Shown here in pieces: positions 31,698-64,000 of a stretch of 64,000 bases of DNA. Origin of the DNA: Begonia masoniana (Eukaryota; Streptophyta; Magnoliopsida; Cucurbitales; Begoniaceae). The position numbers and the translations under genes were made by a program. The stretch covers positions 6,201,043 through 6,265,042 of the forward strand of contig CM039509.1 in NCBI GenBank assembly GCA_022432975.1, in the 5' to 3' direction. The notes under the pieces were generated by a model, which worked only from the letters and a program-made list of their open reading frames with translations, did no database searches and was not told the DNA's origin. Each line of letters opens with the position of its first letter. The first letter of the stretch is position 1.

Positions 31698-34416
31698 TGT
31701 AACACCCGAGAATTTCCTGTAACGCACATATGTCTTAGGGTAGACGGGTAGAATAGTTTAATGAAAGGTGTTGAGAATAGAATTGGAATTTAAGTATGCA
31801 AAAAGAAGAAAAGGAGGTTTGACTATTCAAACCAATAAGTTGTGGAAAAGTCAAAAGGTGTTTTTGTGTTTCAACCAATAGAAATGTAACATGTAATTGA
31901 AAGAAATGGAAGAAAATTGGTGCAATAACAAGGCATTCACGTTGGAGAAATTGGGGAATAAAGTTTGAGGGTGGTTTTACAATTTTGAAAAGATTAGTGG
32001 ATGAAATGCAAAAGTGACAAAATTCTTAGGTTAAAAAGGTGAGTTTCCATTTTTCCTTCATCTTCTTCGAGCTTCTCTCCTTCTCCTCCATAGCCATCGA
32101 TCCCCTTCCTCCTTTCTTCATCTATTGAAGACTTTTCAAGGTAATTTCTCTTGGGTTTTGGTTTGTGTACATTTAGATAGAGTTTAGAAGTGTTTTTATG
32201 TATTTTGGTTGAGTTGGTGAATTTTAGAAAACCCTAGGTTAGGGATTCCGAAAAATTGAGTTTAGATGTTAGATTTCTTTCCTATTTTGGTAGTTTAGTT
32301 GTTGAATGGAGTGATTTAGGTTGTTAGAGGGGTTAGATGGAAGATTGAAAGAGTGTTACACAAAAACGGTTTAAGAACACTTTAGGGCCGGTTCTGTCTT
32401 TGGGAATTTCGGGCTGGCCAAAGTATTTGTTTGGTTAATTTGAGTGATTCAATGGATAGTAGACGTGTAGAGGTTTCCGAGTTGGGGTGGCACGTCGAAA
32501 TCCGTTGAAAAACGAGAAAGTTATGGCCGTTTAATGTTGGACGTCGGTAATTTGTCTAAAAATCGGGTTTAGTATTTGAAGTGTGAGGTGTGCTTTAGGT
32601 TTGTTAAGTTTTAGTTAGAAAATCTTTTAGAATTTATTGATAGCTTATCAAACTAAGTTTACGTTGTTTTAGGTTATCGTGCGTGTGAATTGGCCGAGTT
32701 AAGTGATCAGGTGGAAAACCGAGCGTCCAGGTAAGTAGTGGTAGCTTTCTTTCGCCTTCGAGCCTACACCACGGAACGGTAGGGTTATTTATTTCGTGTT
32801 GTGTTTTGTTGGGTTTGGTTGCATAATGGTTGACGTGCATCATTGTTTTCAGTAACGAAAATACGAGTTGTTTTTGCATGGCTGGTTGTGAGTGTGAACG
32901 TAATTAGATAAATAATGTTCCTTGTCGGGATACAGTGCTTGCAGTGGCACCCCGAAGGGAACTTGAGATCTCAAATAGTGTACCTTGTCGGGATACGGTG
33001 CTTGCAGTGGCACCCCGAAGGGAACTCTATGAAGGATGGTTGGCTAAAATACGTAAAGGTCGTGAGTATGAATTCCTAGACGGTTATAGGATTCTACGAT
33101 CGACGAGGGAGATTATGCATGGCCATCCTAGACGGTTATGGGATGTGAGATATCTAGTCTTGCTTTGGTGATTCTGAGTTTGGCCGTCCTAGACGGTTAT
33201 GGGATGTGTGCCTACTCAAATCACACGGCTTATGAAATGAATAATGTAATGAACAGCAACGAATAGCAAATAAACACAACTGAGTGGTAGAAACTGCATT
33301 GTATTAGGTTGCTTGCATTGTGTTGTAGTCTCATTCATTACTCCCTACTTGCTAAGCATTAGGCTTACGTTTTGTGTTCTGTGGTGTAGGTGACGAATTC
33401 TGTTCAGGTGAGGTTGACGAGACAGCTGAGGTTTAGGCTGCAGTCGGAGGAGTACGGAGTCCGCCGGCGCAGGCTATTGTTGGGGCGTCTCGATTACTAT
33501 CGTCCTCGGGAGTTTTGTGGGAATGTTGTCATTGGTTTGGTAAGCGTTTTGTAAGGCTTTTTGTTTAAAACGACTTCGACTTATTGAATGTTTAGTATGA
33601 ATATTTACAAAAGTGTTGTGGTAGTGAATTTTAATGTTTTGAGTTGGGGATATTGTGTTTAATGGTTGTAGTAGTTGGGTAGTTGAAAACATATATTTTG
33701 TGTGTTTGGTTCCAGGGTTCGGTTTAAAGAAATTTAGGCGTTATGCCACCCGTTTCGGTTTTAAACTATTTAACGTCGGGTTATGTTTGCTATTTTTTTT
33801 ATTTAATCGTTTGAAGTCGGTTTTCTATAAAATTTACGGGAGTGGAAGATTTATGTGTCGGGAGTGTATGGTAAAAATTTCGGGATTTTTGGAGATGTCG
33901 GGCTCATAGAAAAGTGTAGAAAAGTCGGGAAGGTCAAGGAAAGTCAAAACGAGGTGTTTTGGGGCATTTTTGGTTGGAAAAACCCGAGCCGGCCCGATCG
34001 ATCGGGCACGGGTCACGACCGATCGCGGCCGGGATCATTTTTGGTGAAAACAGGCCGAGAGGGCCCGATCAATCGGGCCAAAATCGTGACCGAACGCGAT
34101 TGGGCACACACAGGGTGTGCCCAGCGCGCGCAGCGCACAGCGCGCAGCATGCTGGCGCGCAGCGCCCTGTCTGGGTGCGCTCGGCGCCCAGCAGCAGTAT
34201 TTTTTTTTTTAAAAAAAATTTTGTACGATTTCCTCTTTGTTTTAACCCGACTTTTTCCAACATATTTTAAACGTATTTTGGCACGTTTTCCAATAAAAAT
34301 CGAGGGTTCGAAAAACCCGAAAACCGAGTCGAAAAAAATTTACGAAAAAACATTTTAAACGTGGTTTAAACACGAGATTGGTTTGCAATGTAACACAACG
34401 GGCCCGGGGCGTTACA
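31698..34416 (+). mobile_element. Solo LTR 1 (Gypsy/Tekay-type, 2.7 kb)
   Basis: Starts TGTAACACCCGAG and ends CCCGGGGCGTTACA. The target duplication is ATATC (31693-31697, 34417-34421). No second LTR or internal region, so a solo LTR left by LTR-LTR recombination. Putative splice signals: donor AAG/GTAATT at 32140/32141, acceptor TTTAG/G at 32672/32673, donor CCAG/GTAAGT at 32730/32731, acceptor GTGTAG/GTGAC at 33389/33390, donor CAG/GTGAGG at 33407/33408. Tandem motifs lie in the second interval. CG-rich palindromes are at 33992-34007 and 34061-34079. Confidence 0.88.
32915..33210 (+). repeat. Minisatellites inside solo LTR 1
   Basis: Two copies of a ~70-base unit (GTCGGGATAC.GTGCTTGCAG, then CACCCCGAAGGGAACT) followed by three copies of CCTAGACGGTTATGGGATGT or close variants. 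Both lie between the GTAAGT donor-like and GTGTAG acceptor-like sites. Confidence 0.8.
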
Positions 34417-35388
34417 ATATCAGTTGGATAATCAACTTCATCATCTTCATTTGGATCTAGTGATTCTCCAGCTAAAACAGAAAAGTGACTGCTATCAGAG
34501 GCCATAGGGGAATCATTTTTATTATCCTGATCTTGATCTTTAGGCAGAGATAAAAATTGCTCTCGAATGGATTCAAGAACTTTAATTTCCAGCTGAGAAG
34601 AATTTAGATTTGGATACTAATTTTTTATCATCAATTTGATTTGATGAATAAAATTAGTGTCCCGGAATCAGCTGTGGAACTTTTTACTGATGATTTTTGA
34701 AGTTCCTGGTACTGCTTTATTACTTGTGCCATATTTGATAAACATTTTTTTGAATTAATTCGGGACCACCAATTTACATAAAAATTTTGTTGAAGTTCAG
34801 GTATTCCCAAATGGTCTTTGTCTAATTCTAGGTTCCATTGCCAGATCTAGTTAATCTGAAATTCTGTGCAAAACCATAGTAGATCCTGACCAATAAATAC
34901 TGCCTTTTGATTTGATAAAATTGGGTGACAAGCAACCCATAAAGAGAAATTTTCCTGAAAATTCTTCGAAAATAAACTTAGTTCAGGGGCATGAAATTCC
35001 CACCAATGTAAGAACCAAGTTGGATATTTTTCTTCAGAATTTAAAATCTTCAAATTAAAAGCGAAGAACCAAGAATGAGTTCTCACTGGATTCTGATAAT
35101 AAAAAGCGAGTGACCAGGCATTGGCATAATCCCAATAATTATATCTAGTCAATCAACTTTAAAGTTCTTGGAGCAAATACTGATAATCCTCATTCTTGTG
35201 GGTGAATAATTCTTATAACATAACACTTTGAATGTGTTATGAGAGTTTTACTGTTTCCTTCTTCCACATAATGGTGGAATAATTAAACTGGTGAATAAAC
35301 ACCACGAATGATTAAAAATAAACTTAGTTTTTATTTTTCATTCGAATTAATTACTATTTTATGACCAATCTCATGGCTCCTTATACCA

Positions 35389-36888
35389 AAGAGGGGAAGA
35401 ACGATTAATCAATGAAAATTTTATAAACAGAAGTAAAACTTCCAAAGGAAAGATACAAGGTCACAACTAGAAGAAACACCAGAGCAAGAGAGAAGAAGAG
35501 GCTATATCCAACTTAATTTTCATCTACAAACCTCTGTTATATAGCAGGAGGGAAAAGCTAAATCATTGGAGTGAAACATCATGTGACGAAGATCACCAAT
35601 ATACAGATGGTGGCCATCGGATCAACTTGTTCTTCCGGCTTCTTTAAAAGATGGGCACCCTTGTTGGACTTGGACTACCTGCTTTTTGTTGGCCCACCGA
35701 ACGAATTTGACCCACATTCTGCTATGATAATCAAGCATCTCTTTTTCTTGAGGAGTCATAAGATCCTTAGGCAAAATAAATTTATGGTTATGCGATAAGG
35801 TCTAATCCGTCTCTCCAGGGCGTCGAAGTACTGGACGCCTGTTACGAATTGGAAATAGTCTAACCTTATTTCTGATTCTTTTTCTTCTCTCGATTCTGCG
35901 TGTTTCGATAAGGAGTCTCAAAGGTCTATTCAGTTGGATAACAAACTTAAGCATCTTCATGTTGATCTGTGATCTCCACAAAAACAAAAGTGACTGCTCC
36001 GGCCATAGTGGAATCATTTTTATTATCCTGATCTTGATCTGTCGGCAGTAGATAAAATTGCTCTCGAAACAGGATTCAAGAACTTAATTTCCAGCTGAAA
36101 AGAATTCAATTTGGATACTGATTTTTTTGATCATCAATTAAGTTGATAATAAAGTTAGTGTCCTCCGGACTTAGCTTTGAAACTTTTTAAAAAAACGTAA
36201 TTTGATTTTTGAAGTTCCTGGGACTGCTATCATGACTTTGTCATTTTGTAAAATTTGTCTGATCAACCAGGGACCACCAGTTTACATAACATTTCGTTGA
36301 AGTTCCGAAGTCCCAGATGGTCTTTGTCTAATTCAGGTTCCATTGGCTAGATCCAGTTAATTTGAAATTCTGTGCAAAATCATAGTAGATCTTGACCAAT
36401 AATACTGTTTTTGTTTGATAAATTGGGTGACAAACAACCCAAAAGGGAAAGTTTCCTTAAATTCTTTCGGAATCAACTTAGTTTTCGGGGCATGATATTC
36501 CCACCAATGAAGAACAAGTTGATACTTTCCTTCCGAATTTAAAATATCCGATTACAGTGAAGAACCAAGAATATTTTCTCAGCTAGATTCTGATTAATAA
36601 AAAGCAAGTTACCGCGCGTGCGTAATCCCAATAATTATATTTTGGTCATTACTTTCATTCCTTGGAGCACAATTACTGACACTACCTCATTCTTGTGGTG
36701 AATAATTCTGATAACATAACACTTTGAATGTGTTTAGGAGAGTTTTACTGTTTCCTCTTTCCACTATGGTTGGAATAATTAAACTGGTGAATAAAAAAAC
36801 CACGAATGATTTAAAATATAACTTAGGGTTTATTCATTCATTCACGAATTAACTTACTAATTTAGCCAATCATTATGGCTCTGAACCA
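35389..36888 (-). mobile_element. Tandem unit D, indel-ridden duplicate of unit B
   Basis: Follows unit B base for base but with frequent one- to few-base insertions and deletions, so no frame stays open. The right-end primer site is degenerate (GGCTCTGAACCA on plus, 36877-36888). The error pattern looks like unpolished sequence rather than natural decay; see the findings. Confidence 0.7.
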
Positions 36889-41650: not shown

Positions 41651-42790
41651 GTTGTAGTACCCGGAAATTTATCGGCTCGGATTTCGTAAGGAATAATGGT
41701 GAATGTACAGTGAAATTACAAATTTACGAGAATTGAAGTGAACGGAAAAAAAATGGAAAATAAGTGTAAGATTTTATTAAGGAAGAGTGAGTTAATTTAT
41801 GAGATTGGATTAAATGGATAAAAGGGTATAATTGTTAATTGAAGTTTGTAATTTAAAAAGAAAAGTGAAAGAGAAGAGGATTCATGTGTAACACCAAAGA
41901 GGAAATACTTTTTCTTTCCTTCTTCTCTCTTCTCTCTCTCTGCGATTTACAGAGCTCCCTCTCTGGCGATTTCTTCAACTATTCTTCATCCAAGGTTGGT
42001 TTTTCTTTAATCTTTAAGTGAGTTTAGTTTTCTAAGCTCAACGGAGAGTTTGATATGGATTAAGAGGAGTTTGGAGAGAATTCAAGTTAGGGTTTTGTGA
42101 GAGGACAGGGTTTCACAAAAATTTGGGATTTCTAATTAGTTTTCTTTGATTTTTGGATGTTATGGATGTTTGGATGATAGTGTGGGTGAGTGGTTCGATA
42201 TTTGAGGAAAACTAAGAATTTCGATTCGGTGACAGGGTAGATTTGATTTTGTGGAAAACGACCAAGCCATTTATGTTGTTTGGCAAGCGGCCCAAACCTT
42301 TTAGAAAGTAGACATCCTAAGGAGTCCGTAGAGCCTTGAATCGTAAAAAACGCACAAGTGTAGGAGTAGTTGCGCGATTTTGAAGTTTGGCCGAAATTGA
42401 GGAATTTCGGGTTTTGAGGTTGTGGGAAGTTGTTAGCTTTCTTTGAGAGTTGATGCTTGGGTTTTGAGAAGAGATTAATTTATGTATGGTATTGTGATTT
42501 CTAGGTTCGAACGGGCTTTCGGCCTAGTGCACGTGTACGCGCTTAGTTAAGGAGGCCAGGTAAGTAATGTTTGCTTGTGCTTTGTCTTCCGGCCTACATC
42601 ACAATTCGATAGGATTGCTTTGATATTGTTGCATGGTATGTGTATGTTGTGGTGCGTTTGTTGAGTATGTGTGGTATGTTGTAAGACGTGTTGTGGTATG
42701 TTTGTTGAGTATATTTGTGGTGTGTTTGATTGGTATGGTATGATGTGGTGTGAACGAATCCTAACGTACGTAATTAATTAAGAGACGTGA

Positions 42791-42996
42791 TATGCTCCGC
42801 GAATTTAGGGTGGGACTCAGGCCGGAGGGAGATGTGCTCTGCGAATTTCGGGTGGGACTCGGGCCGGGGGGAGGTGTGCCCGCAAATTTTGAGTTAGACT
42901 CGGGTCGGAGGGTAGTGTGCTCTGCGAATTCCGGGTGGGACTCGGGCCGGAGGTGGTATGCTCCGCGAATTCCAGGTTGGATCTGGGCCGGAGGGT
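42791..42996 (+). repeat. Minisatellite, ~41-42-bp unit, about five copies
   Basis: Repeated CTCYGCGAATTYCGGGTGGG followed by ACTCGGGCCGGAGGG, inside the Gypsy 5' LTR after its GTAAGT donor-like site. Confidence 0.88.
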
Positions 42997-43318
42997 AATA
43001 TGTAAGAGAAAGAACGAATTAAACAAGAGTGAGTACGAGAACGAAACGTGTAACACCCGGATTTTTCCAGATGAGTTAATTAATTTATCTTGTGATTAAT
43101 TAGTCAGTTTGTCGTCAGATCTCTCGGGGGTTCCGATGAAGAGGTTTAAACCGAGCGGGAGTGAAAGTCGATATAAAAAAAAAATAATAATAATAAAAAA
43201 AAAATCGACAGACGAATGATAGAATTTTTTTGACGGGACCAAAAAGGGGCAAAAAGGTAAGTTCCAATTTAATTAATTTAAATTGTTTTAAAAGAAACAT
43301 TAAATGTTTCTTTTAAAA

Positions 43319-43354
43319 CAAACTGAATGGCTTCTTGAAGAAGCCATTCGGTTT
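43319..43354 (+). other. Hairpin in solo LTR 3
   Basis: GAATGGCTTCT-TGA-AGAAGCCATTC with AAAC/GTTT-type extensions. The same stem core occurs in LTR 5 (55337-55365 and its duplicate), which has otherwise diverged. Confidence 0.75.
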
Positions 43355-44857
43355 GTCTGGCTTCCACGGGCACAGAGCAGAACAGGGGGGGAAGGGGAGA
43401 ACGACGCGACGACGATCGGCTGAGCGAACCACCGTGATTTTCGACGTTCTCCGGCCAGTTGACGACAGCGAACGAGTTCCAGCTTGTCTCCGCGCATAAA
43501 CCGACAGGTAGGCTTGTTTTTTTTCTTCCCTGTTTTCTCGCTGTTCGTGGCCGGGGGGGACGAGCTTGTTTCAGCTCCGATCATCGGCCATTTTTGGCCA
43601 TTTTTGGCGTCAATTGGCCGGGCTTGATGCCGGCGAAAGTCGCCTGGAAACAGGAAGCTCAGACCGAGCTAAAAACAGAGGACCCGAGTTTGGGCCTCGG
43701 GTTTTCTCGTGTGATACATTGGGCGTTTTGGTTTATTTACGTTAAATTGAGTTGAATGTGGACGATTGGTAATGAAATGGGTAAAAATTGATGAAGAAAA
43801 TCGAGAGGAGGAGAATTTTAGTTAGGGCAGATTCAGGTTTTCTGTTTTTGACCTATCTACAGCCGTTTGTTTTGAATTCGGTTTTTGGCAGGTTAAGCTA
43901 GGTTATTAGGGGAGTACGTGGCCGCTGGAATCGTTCGATTCCGATAACCGACGTGTGAGTTATGCGCGTTTGAAGTTTTGGGTCGGTTTTTACCAAACTC
44001 AATTAGTGGCCTGTTTAGTTGAGTTTTTGTTGGGTTAGGCTAGAAATAATAGTTTGAGAGGGAAGTGGTGAATGTAAGCTTGATTTTGATGAAGTTTGAA
44101 TTTTTGTCATAGGTCGAGCCGTAGGTGGGCAGGAAACCGAATATCTCCAGCAAGCTAGGACGCCAGGTAAGTAGTAGTGTGGGTGTAATTGCTAGAGAGT
44201 CACCCAGAAGGGGCCTACACCACAGTTGTTTGCATTTTGTGAGTCGTGTGTATGTCATGAGTAGTCAGTAGGTGATGTGTATGTGCGGTCGTCGTCAGTG
44301 GTATGATGTGAGTCTAGTGCGGGTTGTGGGTCGGTTGTAAGTATGTTGAAGTCCTGTGAGAGTTGTGGGACGGTTGTACGTAGGTGGCGAGCCTTGTGAG
44401 GGTTGTGGGACGGTTGTGTGTAGGTTGTGAGTCTTGTGTATGTGCTGGGTCGTAGGTATGCGTGTGAAGTGATGGGTATGTGAAGTATTCGTTAGTTGGT
44501 CATGGTATGCAGGTTGTGAGTCGTAGGTACGTGAGTGATGTGATGTGGAGGCGAAGTTGTCGTTAGTTGGTCATGGTGTGTAGGATGGGAGTCTTGTGCA
44601 GCATGTGAGTCGGTGGTACGTATGTTGTGAGTTTCGTGCAGGATGTAGGTTAGTGGTGTGTACGTTGTGAGTCTTGTGCACGTTGTGGGTCGTTGGTACG
44701 TATGTGATGTGATATGATGTGATGTGTGTGTGCAGTCGTTGTGAGTACGTTATGGTTAGCATGCACCATGTTTTAAGCATGGGAGAGTAGAGGAGATAAG
44801 GAACGGGCCACCTAACCACATGGGGCGGCGATTTGTAACGTCACGTGGTCAAGGTTA

Positions 44858-45058
44858 GACCGGGGGACGGCGATACGTTACGCCCCGGGGATCGTTGTAG
44901 ACCGGGGGACGGCGATATGTTACGCCCCGGGGATCGTTGTAGACCGGGGGATGGCGATACGTTACGCCCCGGGGATCGTTGTAGACCGTGGGACGGCGAT
45001 ACGTTACGCCCCGGGGATCGTTGTAGACCGGTGGACGGCGATACGTTACACCCCGGGA
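44858..45058 (+). repeat. Minisatellite, 42-bp unit, about five copies
   Basis: The unit begins GACCGGGGGACGGCGATACG and continues TTACGCCCCGGGGATCGTTG. Open frames on both strands here are by-products of a unit length divisible by three. A looser GT-rich repeat with GTGAGTCTTGTG/GTGGGTCGGT motifs precedes it at about 44,220-44,740. Confidence 0.92.
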
Positions 45059-46295
45059 GATGCGATGCGGCGAGGGGATGACAACGTGTGTAGAGACGTG
45101 CATGTGTTAAGATTGCATAACCAGTTTTCATGTTTCATATTTGTACTTTTCACTCTACTTTCTAAGCCTTGAGCTTACGGTGTGTTATGTGGTGTAGGTA
45201 CTGCCGAGCAGGAAGGTGAGTACCGAGAGCCTGACCAGGGGTAGATGCCAGTTGGTGATGTGCGACCAGGGCCCCGGTTGACGGCAGTGTTAGGGCGACC
45301 CGACCCAGTAGGAGTCACATCATGGTGTTGATCGGGTGTAGGCTATTTTGTGAGAGCATTATATATTTTGTTGTATATAGCCATAGTAAAGGGTGATGTG
45401 TCACCCTATACTGCGGACTTTCTTCATTTTGATTTGGTAGTACAGTTGTTCTGGTTGATATGAGGTGTGTCCAAGAGATTTGGCATGTTGTAGGGTGTGC
45501 AGGAATATTATGGGTTGGTTGGAAATTTTGGTTTTTTTTTTTTGTTTTACTCAGGTACTTAGCATGTTGGGGGAGCCATTTTCAGGCGTCACTCTGCCGA
45601 AATTTTCGAGGAGGATGCTATGGTGCCTAACAAATGAGATTAGGAGTATGTAGTGGATTAAGGAAAACAGTTTAAGTGTATGAGATAGTGGTAAAGAAAG
45701 AGAGTTGTTTATACTAGAATAGTCCCTACAGCGAACCGAGTCGTGGAGACTCGGGGCGTTACAAAACGAGTGTGGGTATGGTAGGAGATGGTAGGATAGT
45801 GCATGTGTTGAGATATGATGTGTTTATATTGATTGATGCATTACTTGCTTAGCGCTAAGCTAGTAGATGAGTTCAGTGATGTAGTAACGACGAGTTGACA
45901 GGTGAGCTCCCAGAGAGTGCCCAGGAGTAGGGTGGTTGGAGGAGTACCCCGTGCGACGAAGCGGCTGATTGTTAGGGCGGTTTGACCCGGTGTGCGTGTG
46001 GCTGCGTTTTGGTATGAGGGCAAGGGGGATTTATATTTTGAAATGGGAAGTTGTATTTTGGATTGGAGGTTTTAGGATGAGAAAATTGTATGGGTAATAT
46101 ATAGTGAATGTTTTAACGTTAAAAGTCGTTTTGATGTACAAACATGTTTTGAAATGGAAGTGAGTTTGTTTTGATGGTAGTCTTTTGTGATGGTTTGGAA
46201 AGGCAGGGAGTTTGGATTTGGAAAGTTGGGTGTTGAGTTTTAAGGGATTTAAATGTTATGCTGTCAAATTTTGAAGGTTTTATGTTGCTGTCAGG

Positions 46296-46770
46296 AGGGA
46301 GATGTCGACCGATTAGCATGGGTGTCGACCCCTTAGTTGTAGATGAGAGTCGGGGTGTCGACCAGGATATGTGGGAGTCATCCCTCGATAGTGTAAAATC
46401 ATTTGAGATGTCGACCTGTAAATTCAGGAGTCGACCAGTAAAGCAGGTGTCGACCAGAGTCGACCCATGCCCTTCAAGTGTCGACCGAATTTGTGAAGGG
46501 TTGAAACCCGAGAGGATGAATTGTCGACCTGTGCCTGTAGGTGTCGACCCCTTTCCTTCAAGTGTCAACCCGAGAGTGTGGGTGTCGACCAATCTTTGTG
46601 CAAAATGAAAACAGAGGCAACGGGGTGTTGACCCGAGTGTGCAGGTGTCAACCCCCAAGGGCGTTAAGCCATGAGATGTGTTGACCAGTTGGTTGAAGTG
46701 TCGACCGAAGTTGCAAAGGGTTGAAACCCGAGAGGAATGGGTGTCGAAAGAAGCGTTAAGGTGTCGACCG
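46296..46770 (+). repeat. GTCGACC-rich irregular repeat near the end of the Gypsy 5' LTR
   Basis: More than ten occurrences of (G)TGTCGACC or one-base variants at irregular spacing of roughly 25-50 bases. GGTCGACC is a perfect palindrome. No regular period, so not a simple satellite. Confidence 0.75.
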
Positions 46771-47071
46771 GTTTTCCTTGTGCGAGCTTTTTAAAGATTT
46801 TTAGATTTTCACCCTTCGATTTCCAAATTCAGACGTGCATTTTCCAACGCGTTTTAAAGTAGTTTTCCGCTGCAATAATATAGTTTTCTTAAAGGAAGTT
46901 GTTTTCAAGTTGATGAGTAAAGTTTTAAATTTTTCACGCATTTTGAAGTACGAGATGAGTAGTAGAAGTGGCGAACCGAGTCGTGGAGACTCGGGGCGCT
47001 ACAGTGTGGTATCCGAGAGCGAGTGAAGTAGTGACCCGAGTTTAGGGGAAAAACTTGGGGGCGCTACAGTG

Positions 47072-47084
47072 TGGTATCAGAGCC
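47072..47084 (+). promoter_or_regulatory. tRNA-Met primer-binding site of the Gypsy element
   Basis: TGGTATCAGAGCC, four bases after the LTR end. A damaged duplicate (TGGTATCCGAG) lies at about 47,007. Confidence 0.9.
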
Positions 47085-47222
47085 AAAAGGTTAAACCATT
47101 CAGAAGATTACCTAACAACACCGATCGCCGCATGGAAGTGCTCCAACAACTATGAGTGGTTATGTTTTGCTTGAGTTTGTAGATGTTTATGGGTTGTGTC
47201 TAACTTTTCCAAGATTAGCACA

Positions 47223-47566
47223 ATGCCGAGACGACCGGGACGATCGAGAGTGCCTAGGGAAACGATTAGTGCAAGAAATGAGGACGAGCCTATGACGATG
47301 AGGCAGTTGTCAGAGCTAGTGACTAGGCAGTCGCAACAGTTGAGCATTCCATTGAATCGCGAGGGCCAAGGGAATTCGAGGGCTAGCCCCTCGAGCGATA
47401 ATGGTGGCGAAATATTTCATAGGCAGAGACCACCAACGTTTGAAGGGCAATCGTCAGACCCGACTGCTGCAGAGGAATGAGTTCATACGATCGAGAGTAT
47501 GTTTAAGTGTGCCAAGGTGGGTGAGACGGACAAGGTTGATTTGGCAGTCTTCCACCTGGCTAAGGA
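47223..47566 (+). pseudogene. Gypsy gag, N-terminal part (in-frame stop, split by Cassandra array)
   Basis: From ATG 47223 the frame reads MPRRPGRSRVPRETISARNE and reaches RQRPPTFEGQSSDPTAAEE, then TGA, then VHTIESMFKCAKVGETDKVD and AVFHLAKD. In related elements the stop position is Trp (AEEW), so this is a TGG-to-TGA nonsense change. The Cassandra array is inserted right after LAKD and the frame resumes at 49,389 with ARFWWDTVEAI. It is the capsid-type gag of a Tekay/Del-like chromovirus; the clade is inferred from these motifs and the long LTRs. Confidence 0.85.
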
Positions 47567-48912: not shown

Positions 48913-48988
48913 ATCACCCACACCCCTGGGTCCACCCCAAACGCCTCGTTGGCCCATTTTCCGGTTGGGTACAGACTCTGATACCATT

Positions 48989-49388: not shown

Positions 49389-49539
49389 AAGGACGCCCGA
49401 TTTTGGTGGGACACCGTGGAAGCCATCGCTGGCGTTCAGGCCATGGGGAAGGAATTCAAGGAGACTTTCTACGAGAAGTACTTCAACAGTATGGTGCAGG
49501 AAACTAAGATGATGGAATTTTTACAATTAAAGCAGACGG
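49389..49539 (+). pseudogene. Gypsy gag, middle part
   Basis: Continues the gag frame with ARFWWDTVEAIAGVQAMGKE and FKETFYEKYFNSMVQETKMM, then EFLQLKQT, the conserved core of Ty3/Gypsy gag. It ends at the GACGG target duplication (49535-49539) of LTR 6 and resumes at 54,027. Confidence 0.88.
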
Positions 49540-50770
49540 TGTAACGACCCAGAGCTAAGGATATATTTTTTTTAAAAATAAAAACTCCTGGACGTTCAAC
49601 TCAGGCAACATAACTCAGTCATTTAAACCTTAGAACAACCACTTGTAAACTTTTCCTTTAAAAACTCGTGGACAGGTAAAAGAACAACAATCTAAGACCT
49701 TAAATTCTCTGAACTCGAGTCTTTCATAAATCTGATAGCACACTCATCCACAGAGTCGAACGACATAACTTGGGCAACAATCTTATCTACAAGGTCAGGT
49801 GGCTTTATCATCCACGGACTACTCAGACTTTATTGTCCACAGACTACAATGGACGATAACTTTGGACGATACATTGTCTATAGACCACGTGACTTTAATG
49901 TCCACGGTCCACGTGACTATAATGTCCACGGACCACGTGACTACTTACTCACGGGTTACAGACTCATTGTCCACAGACCAACGTCCATGGACTTATTTAA
50001 ATTTGCCATCCACAGACCACGTGACTTCGTCGTCCACAGTCACGTGACCACTTACTTTGGACAACGTATTCGTCCATGTAATTCTGGACAACGATTTACT
50101 TACAACTCTGGACTACTATTTTTGCTTACAACTCTAGACGATTGTTTTTACTTACAAAATAAAACACATAGACAACCGATCAACCGCCCTCCTTGGCAAA
50201 TGTTCGGCTAACTCTCTGGAACTGACTCTATAAATATTCTCACATCTCATTTCAAATGAAAACCATTTTACTCATAAAAACTTAAACATGCGTAGTGGAA
50301 AACTTAAAGGAAAACAGATGAATCTTTAGTCTTAAAATCCTCTTTAAACATGAATTTGTACCAGACAACCCCAGCATTCATCATCATAAGAAAGCCTTAT
50401 CTTACTTATACTTCAGTATCATAAACCTTACTAAAATATACTAGGAGCAACACCACGCGGTCAAAATCACCACCCAGCACAAAATCCACGCCATGAGCAC
50501 CATCCAGCAACCCGACTTAGACATTTTCATTCAGTTTGAGGTCCTCACCTTCTAACTCGTCACTTACATCATAAGGTTTAAACTATAAGCCTAATGCTTA
50601 GTAAGGAGTGCAATATATAGTACTCATGAATGCATGCTTTGAAAGAAATCATAATCATGTTCTTATCTCGTACATTACATGACATATACATATACTTACT
50701 CATTGATTCATTGTGTGCATGTACATGGCCCTCTCGGACAGAAATCTTGGTCCAATGAATGGACAGTGAC

Positions 50771-50852
50771 ATTTTCATGTTCTTTTACTCGTTCTTGTTC
50801 TTTTCATGTTCTTGTTCTTTTCATGTTCTTGTTCTTTTCATGTTCTTGTTCA
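50771..50852. repeat. Minisatellite TTCATGTTCTTGTTCTT in LTR 6
   Basis: About four to five copies of a ~17-base unit between the donor-like and acceptor-like sites of LTR 6, flanked by two ~45-base direct repeats (CTCTCGGACAGAAATCTTGG, at about 50,731 and 50,920). Confidence 0.85.
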
Positions 50853-51382
50853 TCATTTACATAACATGGATCAAGGAGGGTTTGTGCTGAAGGGGGTAGG
50901 CAGAGTGCGTGTACATGGTCCTCTCGGACAGAAATCTTGGTCCCTTTCTGGACAGTGACATGGCCAAACCGCCCCAACCCTCACTTAATCATGGTTGCAT
51001 ACATTTCATATTCATATCTCATTTATAAAAGAAGCATATACATAAAACATTTTCGTATTCTTGGAAGACAAATCTTGATGCAGGAACATGAATGCACTTA
51101 AATCATCAGACTATGGAAAGAATCATACCAGAACAGACGGCTTCATAAACTCTATCATAACATCACATAACATAACTCTTAGTCAACCATAAATCATCAA
51201 GTAACATCAATACAGATTTTCTAGTACCCTTGTGATGTAGGGCTCTAATGGCAAAAAATCTTAATACACTCACTTACCTGGACTCCTTAGCAATGGTCGT
51301 GCTTTCGCTCAAAGTCTTTTCCACGTAGAGCTTTGAACTTCGAAGGGAAGAAGGAGAAGTTGATTGCCAATGGAGGAAATCT

Positions 51383-53785
51383 GTAATACCCGGCTTTACG
51401 AGATATTAATATTTTAATGCATGATGGCATTTTTGTAAATATATCAAATCAAGTCCGTTTTGCGAACGGAAAACGTCATTACGATCTTAACGATTAATAG
51501 GAATTTTAAGGAATTTACGGGATTTTTCGGAGTGATAACGCTATATTTCGAAAAATTACGTTTCTCGTAATATAAAAGACGTTTTAGTAAAAATAGTAAA
51601 CGTGGTCCGATTTGCAAATGGACAGTTTTAAAAGAACCCTAGTAATAAGTTGGGTTTACTGGAGAAATATGGAGATTTGGAGAAACCGAATCGTTAGACA
51701 ATTAACGAAACGAGGGACGAAACAAATGGAAAACAAAAGAAGGGCAAAATGGTAAATTGCCAAGTCAATTTAAATAAAACAAAAATTCTTCTCTTTTCTC
51801 CCTCACTTCTCCTTCTTCGCGAGAACCTTCCTTCGCCGGCGATTTTCTTCCCCCACGCACGGCGTTCTCCATTTCCGACGATCGAGCTCTCCGATCGTCT
51901 CGATCCTTCACGTTTCTTCCTCCTCTCACAACCCTAGGTAAGATTCTAAAGCTTTAGGAACGTATTGTTTGGTTTTTTACGGAGTTAAAAACGTTAGGGT
52001 TCTGTTTAGGGTTTTGTTAAAAAATGCGAATTAGGGTTCGAAATTTATAGGTTAGCTGTGATTAAGGATATAGTGAACGTATCGAACGTTATGGGACGAA
52101 TTTAATTGATTTAGGACGAATGTTAAAATTTGAGAAATTTCGGGTTTTAGGGAAAAACTTGTTGATTGTTCTTTCGAGGTATCAGTCGTAAATTTGTTTG
52201 TCGATATGCCTCGATTAGTTCAATTAGAGCTTTAAGGAATCTCCTTGGTAAAGATTTCGTTAAAAATTGGACGTTTAATAGTTTAAACTCGTTTTAACGA
52301 TAATTTGGTGAAATTGCCTAGGTAAACAACGCTCGTGGACGGAGCTTGAGCTGCAATGGACACGAGGTAAGTTCTCGTGATCTTTTCTGGCCGATTGGTT
52401 TACACTGTACATCGAAGTCGTCTCGAGGAGTTTTGGTGATGCGTTTGTTTAAATTGTTTTGGTTGGGTAGCTAGGTTAGTCGTTTATAGGTTATGTTTGT
52501 TTATCGTCTTGATGGTACACATGCTGGTTGTTTACTTTATGCATTTGACTGCTCATGCATCACATCTGTTAAAGCATATGTTTAAGGGAACGAAATGAAT
52601 CTATGTAATCTGTTATCTGGTCACGGCGAGGTGGTTTAGACCTCGGTGACATTCTGTCTGCGACCTAATTAAAAAGTAAAATGAACCAACAAAATCTACG
52701 TAATCTGTTATCTGGTCACGACGAGGTGGGTTTAGGCCTCGGTGACGATCTGTCTGCGACGTAATGAATCTGAATCTGCTATCTGCATGTTTTATGAATG
52801 ACATTTGCATCTGCACGCATTCTGCATGTACGAGAGCTTGCTGAGATTTTTATCTCATAGGTGTCTGTATGGTGTAGGTGACTTCAACATAGGTGAGGAC
52901 AAGATCCCTCCACCTGAGGAGTGATGCAGTTGACGGAGGATGGCTTGCGTGGTGTGCTGGCGCAGTCGATGCTAACCTGACCCGTGGGGATGTATGTATA
53001 GGTTTTGGGGTTATTGGGATCGTCTGGGCTGATGGTTGTATAGACATTTTAGGATGTTTGGATCTGATAGTTGATAGGTTAAATGATTTATAAATGTTTT
53101 GGAAATTGATTTTATAACCTTTTGTTTGATTTCAAAACAGGTGGATTTGTTTAGGTTTCAAACATATCCACGCAGTTTGTTTTCATGAAAATTGATCGCA
53201 TTTTAGATACGTTTTGAGTCGTTATTTAGGGTGATTCGGTGAATGTGAAAAAGATGAGGATACGCGTGAGTTTATATTTGATGTTATTGTGTTGGTTAGG
53301 GTTATGTATAAGTCGTATTTGTGTAGTTGGCGCAGAAAGAAAAAAGAAAGAAAGAAAGAGGAAAGAAATGGAACGAAAGAGGGAGGGAGGCAGTGAGGGT
53401 GGCGATTGATCGCCTGAGGAGGGGATCAATCGCCCCTCTTGGATCGCCACTCCCTGGAATTCCAGGGAGTGTGGCGATTGATCGCCACTGGCGTTTTGGC
53501 AACAAGCGAACAATCGCCTGTTGCAATCTCCTACGGGCGATTGATCGCCCCTGTATATTTGGGATGAAAATCCCTTTTTGTCCCTCGGCCGATACTTAGT
53601 TGTTTTAAATGTTTTTAATTGTTTTACATATTTGTTTTAATTGTTTTAGTATTTGTTTTAAACGAATTACTAAACGAACTCTGATTTCGATTTAATAACC
53701 GCTTAAGGTTAGGTCTAAAGTTTATAATGATAAGTATAGAAAAAATAGTACGGGAAAAATTGGGTACAGTATTAGGGTCGTTACA
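51383..53785 (+). mobile_element. Solo LTR 4 (2.4 kb) nested in LTR 6
   Basis: Starts TGTAATACCCGG and ends AGGGTCGTTACA; the target duplication is AAATC (51378-51382, 53786-53790). Splice-like signals: CCTAG/GTAAGA (51937/51938), CCTAG/GTAAAC (52321/52322), CGAG/GTAAGT (52366/52367), GTGTAG/GTGAC (52877/52878), ATAG/GTGAGG (52892/52893). A ~60-base direct repeat (CTGTTATCTGGTCACGRCGA) lies at about 52,609 and 52,706. GGCGATTGATCGCC palindromes lie near the end. Confidence 0.88.
53398..53560 (+). repeat. Cluster of GATC-centred palindromes in LTR 4
   Basis: GGCGATTGATCGCC (three times, one as GGCGATTGATCGCCAC) and GGGATCAATCGCCCC, plus CCCTGGAATTCCAGGG at about 53,450. They can form alternative hairpins. 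Confidence 0.8.
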
Positions 53786-54026
53786 AAATCACCATGGGGA
53801 GATTTCTTGGAGGAGGAGTCAGCCGCCAGAGGGAGCTCACGGAGTGGAGGAGGTTTAAGTGAGGTTTTAGAATTTTCCTTTTCTATTTATATTCGATCCA
53901 AATCACTTTAATTACAAATTTTGCCATTAAACCTACTTTTCTTTTGTAATCTCCTTATCCCATAAACCACACCATAAATAACCACGGGATAAAATACCCA
54001 ATAAAAGTGCTGGTTGTTACAGACGG

Positions 54027-55060: not shown

Positions 55061-55336
55061 TGTAACACCCGAGAATTTTTCCTGAATGTGTACTGCTTTA
55101 GATTTAATTAAGTTATGGATCTTAAAATTATTTAAATTTAGAAGAGAAGGATTGGAGAGTCAATTTATGGAATTTAATGGGTTATTTAGTTTCTTAAAAA
55201 CTTGGGATTTTCTTTGGAAGAGGTTTCTAAAATTTTAGGCCTAGTGGACGCGAAATTAACGGAAATACGGAAGTTCAAATATGTGAGGGCAATTTAGTCA
55301 TTTAACTAAAATAATAATAAAAAAAAAATATAGAAA

Positions 55337-55365
55337 CAGAATGGCTTCACGAAGAAGCCATTCTG
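55337..55365 (+). other. Hairpin in LTR 5
   Basis: CAGAATGGCTTC-ACGAA-GAAGCCATTCTG, sharing its stem core with solo LTR 3. Confidence 0.78.
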
Positions 55366-55849
55366 CTTCGCTTCTTAACCCGAGCCCCGTTGAGAGAAGA
55401 GCGCGAGCGACCTCCCTCCGACGGCGACCATGCGATTCCAGCCACCGTTCAGACGAGCGAACTCCGGCGAGCTGAAGCCAGAGCTCGGTTCGGCTTTCTC
55501 CGCACCATACCTGACCCAAAACAGGTCGAGCCATAGGTGACGTGATGTGCCAAACCCAGCGAGCTAGGACGCTAGGTTAGTAATGAATTGTGTATTTTGT
55601 CGCCTTCGGGCCTACACCACAGAACGATAGTGTATTGTTTGGTGTTTGAGTATTGTTTGATGAATTGCTGGGTTGTTATTGTTAGTGTTTGAGTATTGTT
55701 TGATAAATTGCTGGGTTGTTATTATTTGGTGTTTAAGTGTTGTGTGATGAAATTCTTGGTTGTTGTTTGGTGTTTGAATATTGTGTGAATGACATATGTA
55801 ATGTTGAAGCTTGAACAAATAAGAGTGGTAAGCATGAACGTTGTTAAGA

Positions 55850-56430
55850 AAAACACTAGAGATTAAAGCCTCGTCGTTAAAGTGCAGGATGCCTAGAGGC
55901 TTTAACGACTCGTCGTTAAGGGCTAGAGTAAGCACTAGGAGTTAAATGCCTCGTGTTAAAGTGCAGGATGCACTAGAGGATTTAACGACTCGTCGTAAGG
56001 TGCTAGAGTAAGCACTAGGAGAGTTAAATGCTCGTCCTTAAAGTGCAGGATGCATAGGGATTTAACGACTCGTCGTTAAGGTGCTAGGAGTAGCATAGAG
56101 AGTTAAATGCTCGTCGTAAAAGTGCAGGATGCACAGAGGATAACAGCTAGGCGTTAAGGGTGATATAGACGTATGCACTAGAGAGTTTAAATGCCTCGTC
56201 GTTTAAAGTGAGGATGACTAGAGGATTAAAACGGCTCGTAGTAATGGCTTAGAGTACGCACTAGAGAGTAAATGACTTGTCGTGACATGCAGGGAGCACT
56301 GGAGGATTTAAACGACCTCGGTCGGATAAACATGCAGAGATGCACTAGGAGTTGAATGCCTGGCGTTAAAGTGCGAGTCGCCTAGAGGGGTTTAAGTCTC
56401 GTCGTTTAACGTGCATGAGGGAGTAAGAAA
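55850..56430 (+). repeat. Minisatellite of LTR 5, noisy copy
   Basis: ~85-90-bp unit made of GCACTAGAG(AG)TTAAATGCC, CGTCGTTAAAGTGCAGGATG and CACTAGAGGATTTAACGACT; about seven units with many small indels. Confidence 0.82.
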
Positions 56431-56760
56431 AATAGCAGGTGGCGTAGCATTGGCATGTGTAGGAGGCGGCATGTTGCGCATTGTGTTTGTTTACATTTGT
56501 GTTATATTACTTGCTACCGTAAGCTTACGGGTGTGGGTATGTTCGTGTGTAGGTATGACGCAGTTACAGGTGAGCTACGCGATGTGAGACAGGAATTGGG
56601 AGTGAAGTCGTCAGCGACGCAAGGGGCTGCAGGTGTAGGCAGTTTTGGGGGGCATCGAACCTGTATTCGGGGGAATGTGGGGCTTTATATTTTGATAGTT
56701 TATTTGTAGCTGTTTGTTTGTAGAAAAGATGGGAATTGCGTAATAAATCTGTTTTCAGGT

Positions 56761-56861
56761 CCATGGGGAAGGGAATTCAAGGAGACTTTCTACGAGAAGT
56801 ACTTCAACAGTATGGTGCAGGAAACTAAGATGATGGAATTTTTTACAATTAAAGCAGACGG
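56761..56861 (+). pseudogene. Gypsy gag fragment (unit 2 copy)
   Basis: A copy of 49441-49539 with small indels (GAAGGGAATTC and TTTTTTAC in place of GAAGGAATTC and TTTTTAC) that shift the frame. The GACGG target duplication lies at 56857-56861 and an extra T precedes the LTR start. Confidence 0.85.
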
Positions 56862-56862
56862 T

Positions 56863-59800: not shown

Positions 59801-61327
59801 TATGTTTGTTTATCGTCTTGATGGTACACATGCTGGTTGTTTACTTTATGCATTTGACTGCTCATGCATCACATCTGTTAAAGCATATGTTTAAGGGAAC
59901 GAAATGAATCTATGTAATCTGTTATCTGGTCACGGCGAGGTGGTTTAGACCTCGGTGACATTCTGTCTGCGACCTAATTAAAAGTAAAATGAACCAACAA
60001 AATCTACGTAATCTGTTATCTGGTCACGACGAGGTGGGTTTAGGCCTCGGTGACGATCTGTCTGCGACGTAATGAATCTGAATCTGCTATCTGCATGTTT
60101 TATGAATGACATTTGCATCTGCACGCATTCTGCATGTACGAGAGCTTGCTGAGATTTTTATCTCATAGGTGTCTGTATGGTGTAGGTGACTTCAACATAG
60201 GTGAGGACAAGATCCCTCCACCTGAGGAGTGATGCAGTTGACGGAGGATGGCTTGCGTGGTGTGCTGGCGCAGTCGATGCTAACCTGACCCGTGGGGATG
60301 TATGTATAGGTTTTGGGGTTATTGGGATCGTCTGGGCTGATGGTTGTATAGACATTTTAGGATGTTTGGATCTGATAGTTGATAGGTTAAATGATTTATA
60401 AATGTTTTGGAAATTGATTTTATAACCTTTTGTTTGATTTCAAAACAGGTGGATTTGTTTAGGTTTCAAACATATCCACGCAGTTTGTTTTCATGAAAAT
60501 TGATCGCATTTTAGATACGTTTTGAGTCGTTATTTAGGGTGATTCGGTGAATGTGAAAAAGATGAGGATACGCGTGAGTTTATATTTGATGTTATTGTGT
60601 TGGTTAGGGTTATGTATAAGTCGTATTTGTGTAGTTGGCGCAAGAAAGAAAAAGAAAGAAAGAAAGAGGAAAGAAATGGAACGAAAGAGGGAGGGAGGCA
60701 GTGAGGGTGGCGATTGATCGCCTGAGGAGGGGATCAATCGCCCCTCTTGGATCGCCACTCCCTGGAATTCCAGGGAGTGTGGCGATTGATCGCCACTGGC
60801 GTTTTGGCAACAAGCGGACAATCGCCTGTTGCAATCTCCTACGGGCGATTGATCGCCCCTGTATATTTGGGATGAAATCCCTTTTTGTCCCTCGGCCGAT
60901 ACTTAGTTGTTTTAAATGTTTTTAATTGTTTTACATATTTGTTTTAATTGTTTTAGTATTTGTTTTAAACGAATTACTAAACGAACTCTGATTTCGATTT
61001 AATAACCGCTTAAGGTTAGGTCTAAAGTTTATAATGATAAGTATAGAAAAATAGTACGGGAAAAATTGGGTACAGTATTAGGGTCGTTACAAAATCACCA
61101 TGGGGAGATTTCTTGGAGGAGGAGTCAGCCGCCAGAGGGAGCTCACGGAGTGGAGGAGGTTTAAGTGAGGTTTTAGAATTTTCCTTTTCTATTTATATTC
61201 GATCCAAATCACTTTAATTACAAATTTTGCCATTAACCTACTTTTCTTTTTGTAATCTCCTTATCCCATAAACCACACCATAAATAACCACGGGATAAAA
61301 TACCCAATAAAAGTGCTGGTTGTTACA
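56863..61327 (-). mobile_element. Solo LTR 6 with nested LTR 4 (unit 2 copy)
   Basis: Duplicate of 49540-54021 with the same ends and GACGG on the right (61328-61332). Nested LTR 4 is at 58701-61091 with AAATC duplications (58696-58700, 61092-61096). Because the insertions share sites with unit 1, the block duplicated after both insertions, or the assembly duplicated it. Confidence 0.85.
58701..61091 (+). mobile_element. Solo LTR 4 (unit 2 copy)
   Basis: 2,391 bp against 2,403 bp in unit 1. The differences are mostly single-base losses in homopolymers or short runs. Splice-like sites, the ~60-base direct repeat and GGCGATTGATCGCC palindromes are all present. Confidence 0.88.
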
Positions 61328-61332
61328 GACGG

Positions 61333-62368
61333 AGTCTGTATCCAAGTATATTCGGCAGTTCGAAGCATTTTAAAGTTTGCGAGCCATTTGGTTATCAAAG
61401 AAGAGAACAAGGTCATTCAGTTCGTGCAAGGACTGAAACCTGAGATTTATAAGGGTGTGAAGATAGCGGGCACCCGGGGTATGCCGTATAGCGAAGTAAC
61501 GGCCAAAGCACTAGAGGTAGAAGAGGCGGACCTCAAGTGTGTCAAGCAACGTGAGGCTTCTAGAAGGTTTTTTCAGGGATGTTGCACCACAACAGGGCCG
61601 TGGGGGGCCCTCAACAACAACAAAGGGGCACGAAGAGGCCAGACAAAATCTAATTGGCCAAGGAAGCTGCCAGCGTCCTCAGGGTTTAAGAAAGTTCCCT
61701 CAGTGTCCAAAGTGTATGAGATTTCACCCGGGTGAGTGTAGAATGAGTGCAGGCAGGTGTTTCAACTGCAACGATGTCAGGCACATTTCCAGAGATTGTC
61801 CAAAGTCGAGGGTGACTCGGTGTTTCAATTGCAACGAGGTCGGGCACATGGCTAGAGATTGTCCAACCGCAAAGAAGGGTCCGACTAAGGTGGCACCTAA
61901 AGTTTTCGCTATGATCGAGTCCGGAGACGACGACCACCCCGCCGTAGTGTCAGGTACTGTGCTGATTAATATGGTGCATGCATATACTTTAATTGATTCC
62001 GGGGTGACACACTCCTTTGTAGCAATGGCATTCGTCGTCAAATTAAATTTGTGGCATACATCAATTGAGCATGTGTATGAGGTTTCGTTACCCTCTGGTG
62101 ATCGCATGCATTCTAATCAAGTGGTGTGTGATAGTATGGTGTCAGTGGGAAGCAAGAGCCTACCTGATGACTTGATCATTATAGGGATAATGGGTTATGA
62201 CGTGATTTTGGGGATAGACTGGCTGTTCGAGTATCATCCAATGATAGACTGCAGATCGAGAATAGTGAGTTTTCAACCCCGAGATGGCGAGAAACATATT
62301 CTGCAAGCCCTGAAGAACACAAGGAAGCTATCTGTTATGGCATCCGTCACGGCTCGGCATTATGCGTG
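61333..62368 (+). pseudogene. Gypsy gag C-terminus and protease (unit 2 copy, frameshifted)
   Basis: Same as 54027-55060 but broken into two frames by single-base homopolymer differences (for example one extra T in a T-run near 61,570 and one extra G in a G-run near 61,605). The zinc knuckles and the LIDSGVTHSF and DVILGIDWL motifs are intact in the second frame. Confidence 0.88.
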
Positions 62369-64000
62369 TAACACCGAGAATTTTTCCTGAATGTGTACTG
62401 CTTAGATTTAATTAAGTTATGGATCTTAAAATTATTTAAATTTAGAAGAGAAGGATTGGAGAGTCAATTTATGGAATTTAATGGGTTATTTAGTTTCTTA
62501 AAAACTTGGGATTTTCTTTGGAAGAGGTTTCTAAAATTTTAGGCCTAGTGGACGCGAAATTAACGGAAATACGGAAGTTCAAATATGTGAGGGCAATTTA
62601 GTCATTTAACTAAAATAATAATAAAAAAAAATATAGAAACAGAATGGCTTCACGAAGAAGCCATTCTGCTTCGCTTCTTAACCCGAGCCCGTTGAGAGAA
62701 GAGCGCGAGCGACCTCCCTCCGACGGCGACCATGCGATTCCAGCCACCGTTCAGACGAGCGAACTCCGGCGAGCTGAAGCCAGAGCTCGGTTCGGCTTTC
62801 TCCGCACCATACCTGACCCAAAACAGGTCGAGCCATAGGTGACGTGATGTGCCAAACCCAGCGAGCTAGGACGCTAGGTTAGTAATGAATTGTGTATTTT
62901 GTCGCCTTCGGGCCTACACCACAGAACGATAGTGTATTGTTTGGTGTTTGAGTATGTTTGATGAATTGCTGGGTTGTTATTGTTAGTGTTTGAGTATGTT
63001 TGATAAATTGCTGGGTTGTTATTATTTGGTGTTTAAGTGTTGTGTGATGAAATCTTGGTTTGTTGTTGGTGTTTGAATATTGTGTGAATGACATATGTAA
63101 TGTTGAAGCTATGAAAATAAGAGTGGTAAGCATGAACGTGTAAGAAAAGCACTAGAGAGTAAATGCCTCGTCGTTAAAGTGCAGGATGCACTAGAGGATT
63201 TTAACGACTCGTCGTTAAGGTGCTAGAGTAAGCACTAGAGAGTAAATGCCTCGTCGTTAAAGTGCAGGATGCACTAGAGGATTTAACGACTCGTCGTTAA
63301 GGTGCTAGAGTAAGCACTAGAGAGTTAAATGCCTCGTCCTTAAAGTGCAGGATGCACTAGAGGATTAACGACTCGTCGTTAAGGTGCTAGAGTAAGCACT
63401 AGAGAGTAAATGCCTCGTCGTTAAAGTGCAGGATGCACTAGAGGATTAACGACTCGTCGTTAAGGTGCTAGAGTATGCACTAGAGAGTTAAATGCCTCGT
63501 CGTTAAAGTGCAGGATGCACTAGAGGATTTAACGTCTCGTCGTTAATGTGCTAGAGTAAGCACTAGAGAGTTAAATGCCTTGTCGTTAAAGTGCAGGATG
63601 CACTAGAGGATTTACGACTCGTCGTTAACATGCTAGAGCATGCCCTAGGGAGTTGAATGCCTCGTCGTTAAAGTGCGAGTAGCACTAGAGGGTTTAACGT
63701 CTCGTCGTTAACGTGCATGAGTGAGTAAGAAAATAGCAGAGTGAGTAGCATTGGCATGTGTTAGGAGGCGGTGTGCGCATTGTGTTTGTTTACATTTGTG
63801 TTATTCATTACTTGCTACCGTAAGCTTACGTGTGTGTGTGTGTTCTGTGGTGTAGGTATTGACGCAGTTACAGGTGAGCTAAGCGAGTGAGCCAGGACTT
63901 GGGAGTAGTCAGAGACGCACGGGGCATGCCGGTGTAGGCAGTTGTTGGGGCGCCTCGACCATGGTCTTCGGGGGAATGTGGGGCTTTATATTTTGATAGT
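62369..64000 (+). mobile_element. LTR 5, 5' part (unit 2 copy, runs off the window)
   Basis: Starts TGTAACACCGAGAA (one C fewer than in unit 1). It has the same hairpin at about 62,641-62,668. This is the clean version of the minisatellite and of the acceptor-like GTGTAG/GTATTGACG site (63855/63856) with the 18-nt exon-like piece ending ACAG/GTGAG (63873/63874). Confidence 0.82.
63145..63715 (+). repeat. Minisatellite of LTR 5, clean copy
   Basis: About seven regular units of ~85 bp. Each holds two alternating halves: GCACTAGAGAGTTAAATGCC then CGTCGTTAAAGTGCAGGAT, and GCACTAGAGGATTTAACGAC then TCGTCGTTAAGGTGCTAGAG. The halves share GCACTAGAG and TCGTCGTTAA, so the unit is itself a diverged dimer. 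Confidence 0.92.

Follow-up and report, generated by a model that had tools for sequence, protein, structure and literature searches.

Predicted introns and a co-varying helix at an intron acceptor in long terminal repeats of probable Ty3/gypsy elements of Begonia masoniana

Introduction

In foamy viruses and human T-cell leukemia virus (HTLV), a splice donor is located in or just behind the R region of the long terminal repeat (LTR), and the acceptor is far downstream. The LTRs discussed here probably belong to Ty3/gypsy elements in a 64,000-nucleotide (nt) stretch of the 795-Mb genome of Begonia masoniana (contig CM039509.1, positions 6,201,043 to 6,265,042; hereafter the window). They resemble these retroviruses in that splicing would begin in an LTR-derived leader while unspliced RNA must survive for replication; they differ in that two complete introns are predicted within the LTR itself. 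LTRs are usually viewed as promoter and terminator only.

A major splice donor is named in a figure legend of a review (PMC7828637). Among plant elements, BARE1 of barley keeps the RNA that it translates apart from the RNA that it replicates, and one of these two pools is spliced; its intron is 104 nt long, with the donor 2 nt past the gag domain (PMC3735527). BARE1 is thus another plant LTR element with split RNA pools, but its intron lies outside the LTR. Ogre and EVADE, named in one passage as intron-bearing plant exceptions (PMC12786077), likewise have introns and partly spliced RNA, although their introns are placed between or within coding domains (PMC12786077, PMC6317226). For Diaspora of soybean, splice donors were predicted inside the LTR, with predicted acceptors on either side of the start codon of gag; the likeness is in the LTR donors, the difference that Diaspora is a prediction only, and its authors stated in 2005 that an intron upstream of gag had not been reported (PMC1142308). 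In sunflower, spliced copia elements were described, and the highly expressed set included no Tekay element (PMC7730604). The literature searched contains no account of a plant element with introns inside its LTR, a weak negative given that most subscription papers lay outside the scope of the search.

Our reading of the Begonia sequence is that the LTR part transcribed from the 5' LTR probably contains two spliceosomal introns, the acceptor of the second being structured and probably regulated. A preliminary description of the window had proposed a spliced LTR leader. To this the present analysis adds the absence of intron 1 exactly at the predicted junction in two LTRs and a helix with co-varying arms over the acceptor of intron 2.

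Results

Splice signals in six LTR families

The part of the window at 31.7-64 kb contains six LTR families with related ends (TGTA...TTACA), partly nested in one another. Their status as LTRs is indicated by TG...CA ends and, for LTR1, LTR3, LTR4 and LTR6, by 5-bp target-site repeats identified by eye; LTR5 is truncated. Matches between families are short and mostly of 60-80% identity, so the LTRs are diverged.

Solo LTR1 (31698..34416, + strand, target-site repeat ATATC) has its predicted exon 1 end at 32140, intron 1 at 32141-32672, exon 2 at 32673-32730, intron 2 at 32731-33389, and exon 3 from 33390. The 5' LTR of a Gypsy element (41653..47003, +), split by LTR3 (43049-45763), has intron 1 at 41995-42504, exon 2 at 42505-42559, and intron 2 from 42560 to an acceptor at 45884. 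The nested solo LTR3 (43049..45763, +, repeat AAACG) has intron 1 at 43508-44112, exon 2 at 44113-44166, and intron 2 at 44167-45197. In LTR4 (51382..53785, +, repeat AAATC), which is nested in LTR6, the corresponding positions are 51938-52321, 52322-52366 and 52367-52877. LTR5 is present in a first copy with a noisy repeat part and a 3' end cut by a tandem duplication (55061..56753, +), and in a clean copy (62367..64000, +). LTR6 (49540..54021, -, repeat GACGG), split by LTR4, has a TATA box at ~53891, exon 2 at 51324-51278, and intron 2 from 51277 to an acceptor region at ~50563. The preliminary description was correct in its lengths for exon 2 (58, 55, 54 and 45 nt, and 51 nt in LTR5) and for the small pieces behind acceptor 2 (18, 17, 18 and 15 nt, and 18 nt in LTR5).

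Donors and acceptors were scored with consensus matrices of our own rather than with those of a tool. Donor 2 (AG|GTAAGT) is the top-ranked GT in LTR1 (244 GT dinucleotides in all), a noisy second LTR1 copy (228), the piece of the Gypsy 5' LTR (122), LTR3 (296), LTR4 (175), and the piece of LTR6 (165). Both copies of LTR5, where it reads GTTAGT, have it in second place (2/143 and 2/150). Donor 2 is thus at the top in six of the eight scored copies and second in the other two, and the ordered signals that the preliminary description had seen recurring do recur, with donor 2 best or second best in all six families. The later signals reported for the minus strand of LTR6 hold for donor 2, whereas the aligned acceptor there is AA and not AG. 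On the whole, GT...AG borders, the donor consensus and a branch-point-like element are all found, the exceptions being this AA acceptor and weak acceptor scores.

Approximately 35 nt before acceptor 2, a branch-point-like TACTAAG, TGCTAAG or TACTGAG was seen by eye in intron 2 of LTR1, LTR6 and relatives. It is held in a small hairpin whose stem changes on both sides in several families (TAAGC/GCTTA, TTAGC/GCTAA, TGAGAT/ATCTCA); folding statistics for this hairpin are at most suggestive (mean z -1.28, 16 representatives).

Precise absence of intron 1 in LTR5 and LTR6

In LTR5, exon 1 and exon 2 are joined directly, at 55524|55525 in the first copy (donor 2 at 55576) and at 62826|62827 in the clean copy (exon 2 at 62827-62877, intron 2 at 62878-63855). 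LTR5 matches LTR3 in exon 1 at 63.6% (E 2e-8) and in exon 2 at 69.8% over 63 nt (E 0.001), and between these two matches there are 605 nt in LTR3 and 0 in LTR5. A closer relative of LTR5, L058, was found on another chromosome, in one of the arbitrarily placed 10-kb stretches (from C3). Over the final 92 nt of its exon 1, LTR5 is identical to this relative at 76 of 92 aligned positions, up to the L058 donor; at the joint, L058 enters a 252-nt intron and LTR5 runs on into exon 2. The preliminary description had noted only the later signals in LTR5. These are present, and the cause of the pattern is the absence of intron 1 at the junction.

LTR6, also without intron 1, provides the second case. 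It has its TATA region in common with a relative, L056 (75% over 77 nt), and the distance from TATA to the joint is ~157 nt in LTR6, as the sum of two pieces flanking the nested LTR4, vs 163 nt in L056. Exon 2 measures 47 nt in both, and L056 carries a 284-nt intron 1 where LTR6 has none. Precise presence and absence between relatives was found for intron 1 alone.

Reverse transcription of RNA spliced for intron 1 would yield intron-free LTRs such as LTR5 and LTR6. Among the six window families, loss of intron 1 is seen twice and loss of intron 2 never; these few cases suggest that RNA destined for packaging may be without intron 1 while it retains intron 2.

LTR3, LTR5 and L058 have in common a nearly perfect hairpin, GAATGGCTTC..GAAGCCATTC, immediately before exon 1 (~43318-43353, 55335-55370 and 62642-62668 in the window).

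A predicted long-range helix closing intron 2

Reverse-complementing the acceptor GTGRTGTAG|G gives CCTACAYCAC, a segment found 30-50 nt downstream of donor 2, and the pairing of this segment (arm A) with acceptor 2 (arm B) spans 10-15 bp. In LTR1, arm A (CCTACACCACGGAAC, 32763..32777, +) lies in intron 2 after donor 2, and arm B (GTTCTGTGGTGTAG|G, 33376..33390, +) holds acceptor 2. In the Gypsy 5' LTR, arm A is CCTACATCACAATTC (42593..42607, +) and its partner GTGATGTAG (45876-45884, +). The arms are at 44214-44228 and 45184-45198 in LTR3, at 52399-52411 and 52866-52878 in LTR4, and at 62913-62927 and 63842-63856 in the clean LTR5 copy (all +); arm A of LTR6 is at ~51241-51227 (-).

Recurrence of this arrangement was assessed in a genome sample of 250 kb (200 kb around LTR1 copies and 50 kb from arbitrary positions) together with the window. 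Starting from the donor, the best downstream complement falls at the acceptor in 33 of 39 hits (27/31 in the genome, 6/8 in the window), one further hit with too little sequence having been left out. The misses are L037, which lies where its locus ends, L040, L050, L052, the first, noisy copy of LTR5, and the Gypsy 5' LTR, which carries a nested insert. Such donor-first hits are present in four of the five arbitrary 10-kb stretches. Ten extra copies taken from the genome pattern list gave the best complement at the acceptor in nine, L062 failing. Starting instead from the acceptor, GGTAAGT stands at the expected place in 28 of 35 sites with a following GT, vs 56 of 1750 random windows, and in none of 31 acceptor-like sites that lack the GT. 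Genome-wide, the donor-plus-arm pattern AGGTAAGTN{15,45}CCTACATCAC has 19,880 matches, and the reversed control 0. A donor-plus-arm pattern has 0 matches in viral contigs, and a 16-mer search returned 27 stretches, all of them lacking a partner arm in the preceding 1,500 nt.

Arm A and arm B change together from copy to copy. Different sequences pair in LTR5 (CCTACACCACAGAAC/GTTCTGTGGTGTAGG), L042 (CCTACATCACAAAAC/GTTTTGTGATGTAGG), L057, with one G-U (CCTACACCGTAC/GTATGGTGTAGG), and LTR6 (CCTACATCAcAAGG/CCTTaTGATGTA). Over 34 distinct copies, 88.4% of cells are paired vs 82.0 in shuffles; both sides change at 7 of the 15 pairs, with 52 double-change cells vs 22.3 in shuffles (0/500 as high). 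The covariation score for the same copies is 0.294 vs 0.185 (again 0/500), and slid registers do not exceed 0.166. With one representative taken from each of 16 clusters, 127 of 160 cells at positions 6-15 are paired between cognate arms vs 112.3 +/- 3.4 when partners are permuted (0/20,000).

An AG buried in a helix usually brakes the second splicing step, and a helix joining both ends shortens a long, repeat-bearing intron. The combination of brake and shortening would fit an intron 2 that is spliced slowly or in a regulated manner.

Upstream ATGs

The predicted exons, with the 5' ends of exon 1 set by us at the CT-rich block, contain 4 ATGs in 1,153 nt vs 12.8 in shuffles (12/5000 as low), and the predicted introns contain 194 vs 149.9. 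ATG-poor exons and ATG-rich introns support the earlier suggestion that splicing would remove upstream ATGs.

Discussion

Proposed mechanism

The sequence itself shows the signals of both introns, the exact lack of intron 1 in LTR5 and LTR6, and the covariation of the helix; that the RNA is spliced, where transcription begins and what the helix does are inferred. Transcription would probably start in or near the CT-rich block, just upstream of which lies the TATA box of LTR6. Intron 1 (about 250-600 nt), with AG|GT borders, would behave as an ordinary intron, and occasional reverse transcription of RNA spliced for it may have founded the LTR5 and LTR6 lineages. Intron 2 (about 380-1,030 nt in most copies, 1,500 in one, frequently with tandem repeats) would combine a strong donor with an acceptor hidden in the 10-15 bp helix formed with the segment just behind that donor, and with the branch-point-like TACTAAG and small hairpin upstream. 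The helix would draw the intron ends together across a stretch of variable length and mask the AG; slow or regulated splicing of intron 2 could then allow unspliced genomic RNA and a spliced, ATG-poor mRNA to coexist. The proposal that introns lie in the transcribed part of the LTR is supported by two lineages that precisely lack intron 1 and by a donor with a paired acceptor that recurs across families.

More tentatively, and at somewhat less than an even chance in our opinion, these LTRs represent a widespread plant Ty3/gypsy group with a two-intron LTR leader, in which a co-evolving, long-range RNA switch at acceptor 2 determines whether RNA is packaged (unspliced) or translated (spliced and poor in ATG), and leakage of intron-1-spliced RNA into reverse transcription leaves intronless LTR fossils. 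If present, LTR introns with a structured acceptor, common to abundant families of this genome, would offer a way to ask how one RNA can be both genome and messenger, and would help to explain long, repeat-bearing LTRs. Solo LTRs would supply spliceable 5' ends to adjacent host genes, and intron-free LTRs could be read as a record of reverse-transcribed spliced RNA.

Several observations weigh against the two-intron reading. Acceptors score weakly: among the six best sites of each piece, acceptor 2 appears solely in LTR1 and the clean LTR5 copy, and acceptor 1 solely in the two LTR1 copies, clean and noisy, and in the Gypsy 5' LTR. At the position aligned with the acceptor, L066 has AT, and AA is found not only in LTR6 but also in L063 and in one of the L042 copies. 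Joined exon1|exon2 and exon2|exon3 sequences are both absent genome-wide in the LTR1 family (up to 2 mismatches; without a matching positive-control count). Comparison of close LTR1 copies says little, seven of them being ~97% alike in the query part. The scans take donor 2, its arm or acceptor 2 as their starting point and are thus blind to losses of intron 2; the evidence for its persistence beyond the six window families is the exon2|exon3 search in the LTR1 family.

The helix has its own difficulties. Its arms are damaged in L045 and L055, and there are none in L062. Single-copy folding, which is not decisive, gives the full helix as the minimum-energy state in LTR1 alone, and duplex energy by itself is unremarkable in three of the six families. 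Neither the count of pairs that change nor that of pair types exceeds the shuffles (176 and 437 of 500). In the comparison of 16 representatives, arm B was mostly placed by best complementarity, which can inflate cognate pairing. For the nine representatives in which arm B is also placed by AGGTGAG, the figures are 69/90 vs 63.8 +/- 2.5, with 634 of 20,000 permutations as high: the direction is kept, but the effect is much weaker. Finally, conservation of the acceptor could stem from the helix and not from splicing.

Alternative explanations

Among the alternatives, the one that survives best, though we consider it unlikely, is that the LTR hosts a small protein-coding gene, with the introns belonging to this gene or to a 3' open reading frame spliced into the 3' LTR. 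Its last exon would be a conserved acidic frame behind acceptor 2 (33390-33434, 45198-45242, 52878-52922, 63856-63888 and equivalents). With the split codon G|GT as its beginning, this frame ends after 14 codons in 23 of 33 distinct copies and, when the LTR1 family is set aside, in 17 of 27. The peptides are acidic, e.g., GDEFCSGEVDETAEV and GEEVTAGEFSELVDG. The recurring stop is accompanied by a modest third-position excess across families: pairwise changes within groups number 110/124/184 by codon position, leaving out the near-identical LTR1-like (12/8/4) and L042/L043 (0/0/1) groups. The f6 group, at 35/85/89, has changes at the second position nearly as frequent as at the third, and the LTR1-like copies lack the excess. 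Moreover, exons 1-2 of LTR1, the Gypsy 5' LTR and LTR3 provide no ATG ahead of the frame, and exon 2 has in-frame stops in some families (by eye).

Somewhat less likely still, the conserved parts of intron 2 may constitute an RNA domain closed by the helix and concerned with packaging, dimerization or reverse transcription, with GT and AG incidental and at most intron 1 spliced. Such a helix accounts for the conservation of GTGTAG without splicing, and the missing exon2|exon3 joint in the LTR1 family agrees with it. Being also a helix arm, which the preliminary description had missed, GTGTAG is no proof of splicing by its conservation alone. An RNA domain, however, leaves unexplained the AGGTAAGT donor that recurs outside the helix, in the acceptor-first scan as well, the branch-point-like TACTAAG upstream, and an ATG depletion that respects the predicted borders.

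Less credible again is the full model of the preliminary description, in which a third donor, AG|GTGAG, ends a 15-18 nt microexon and splicing continues towards gag. All six window families have AGGTGAG, the downstream part of the LTR is ATG-rich (26 in 1,102 nt of the Gypsy 5' LTR), and an acceptor-like CTAACTTTTCCAAG|A is located just before the gag ATG (~47214, by eye). Overall, however, AGGTGAG is present in just 19 of 33 distinct copies. The site reads GGTGTG in L039 and L042, GGTGAT in L053, GGTGAA in L070 and TGTGAG in L056, and AGGTGAG is absent at that place in L058, L060, L063, L064, L065, L068, L069 and L071. Furthermore, AGGTGAG reads as Gly-Glu codons in the 14-codon frame, in which changes peak at third positions. 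Donor 3 and its microexon were therefore rejected as a family-wide feature.

Least likely of these alternatives is that intron 1 was removed from LTR5 and LTR6 by ordinary deletion at AGGT...AGGT microhomology. In its favor, the borders are mostly AG|GT on both sides in the families read, a slip would give the identical product, and LTR1 has no such loss despite thousands of first-look candidates. Deletion could account for a single case, but two lineages would have to pick these two AGGT sites among many, with exon lengths kept within a few nt. Chance is rejected by the donor ranks, covariation and genome counts, and assembly noise by recurrence of the structure at loci on other chromosomes.

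Other features of the window

The gag start of the Gypsy element was identified by eye at 47222..47566 (+), and its interrupted internal part continues at 54083-55060 (+), where a domain search found CCHC zinc knuckles and an RVP_2 protease. AP2 genes were also found, as expected of a plant genome. The gag-protease piece has no relatives among viral or GTDB contigs. We suspect, as a guess, that these Ty3/gypsy LTRs belong to the Tekay/Del chromovirus lineage. The primer-binding-site region is duplicated at 46995-47085, with one GGCGCTACAGTGTGGTATC where the Gypsy 5' LTR ends and another past that point.

In the interval 34420-41024, LTR1 and its flanks occur a second time, at 76-87% identity and with many small indels, in what looks like an unpolished assembly stretch, not real divergence. 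The segment 37450..40165 (+) within it is not another family but the second, noisy LTR1 copy, at 87% identity and likewise rich in small indels. A 7.3-kb tandem duplication (97.7%; 49435-56699 and 56754-64000) doubles LTR6, LTR4 and LTR5; its 80-bp repeat array is far more regular in the second copy than in the first (93% vs 77% matches).

An Rfam search of 31000-64000 returned nothing besides four 5S rRNA-like matches at 47567-49389 (minus strand), inside a 474-bp tandem. This 5S-bearing tandem resembles elements of the Cassandra type. An inverted relative of the 47567-49389 sequence is located at 28479-29210.

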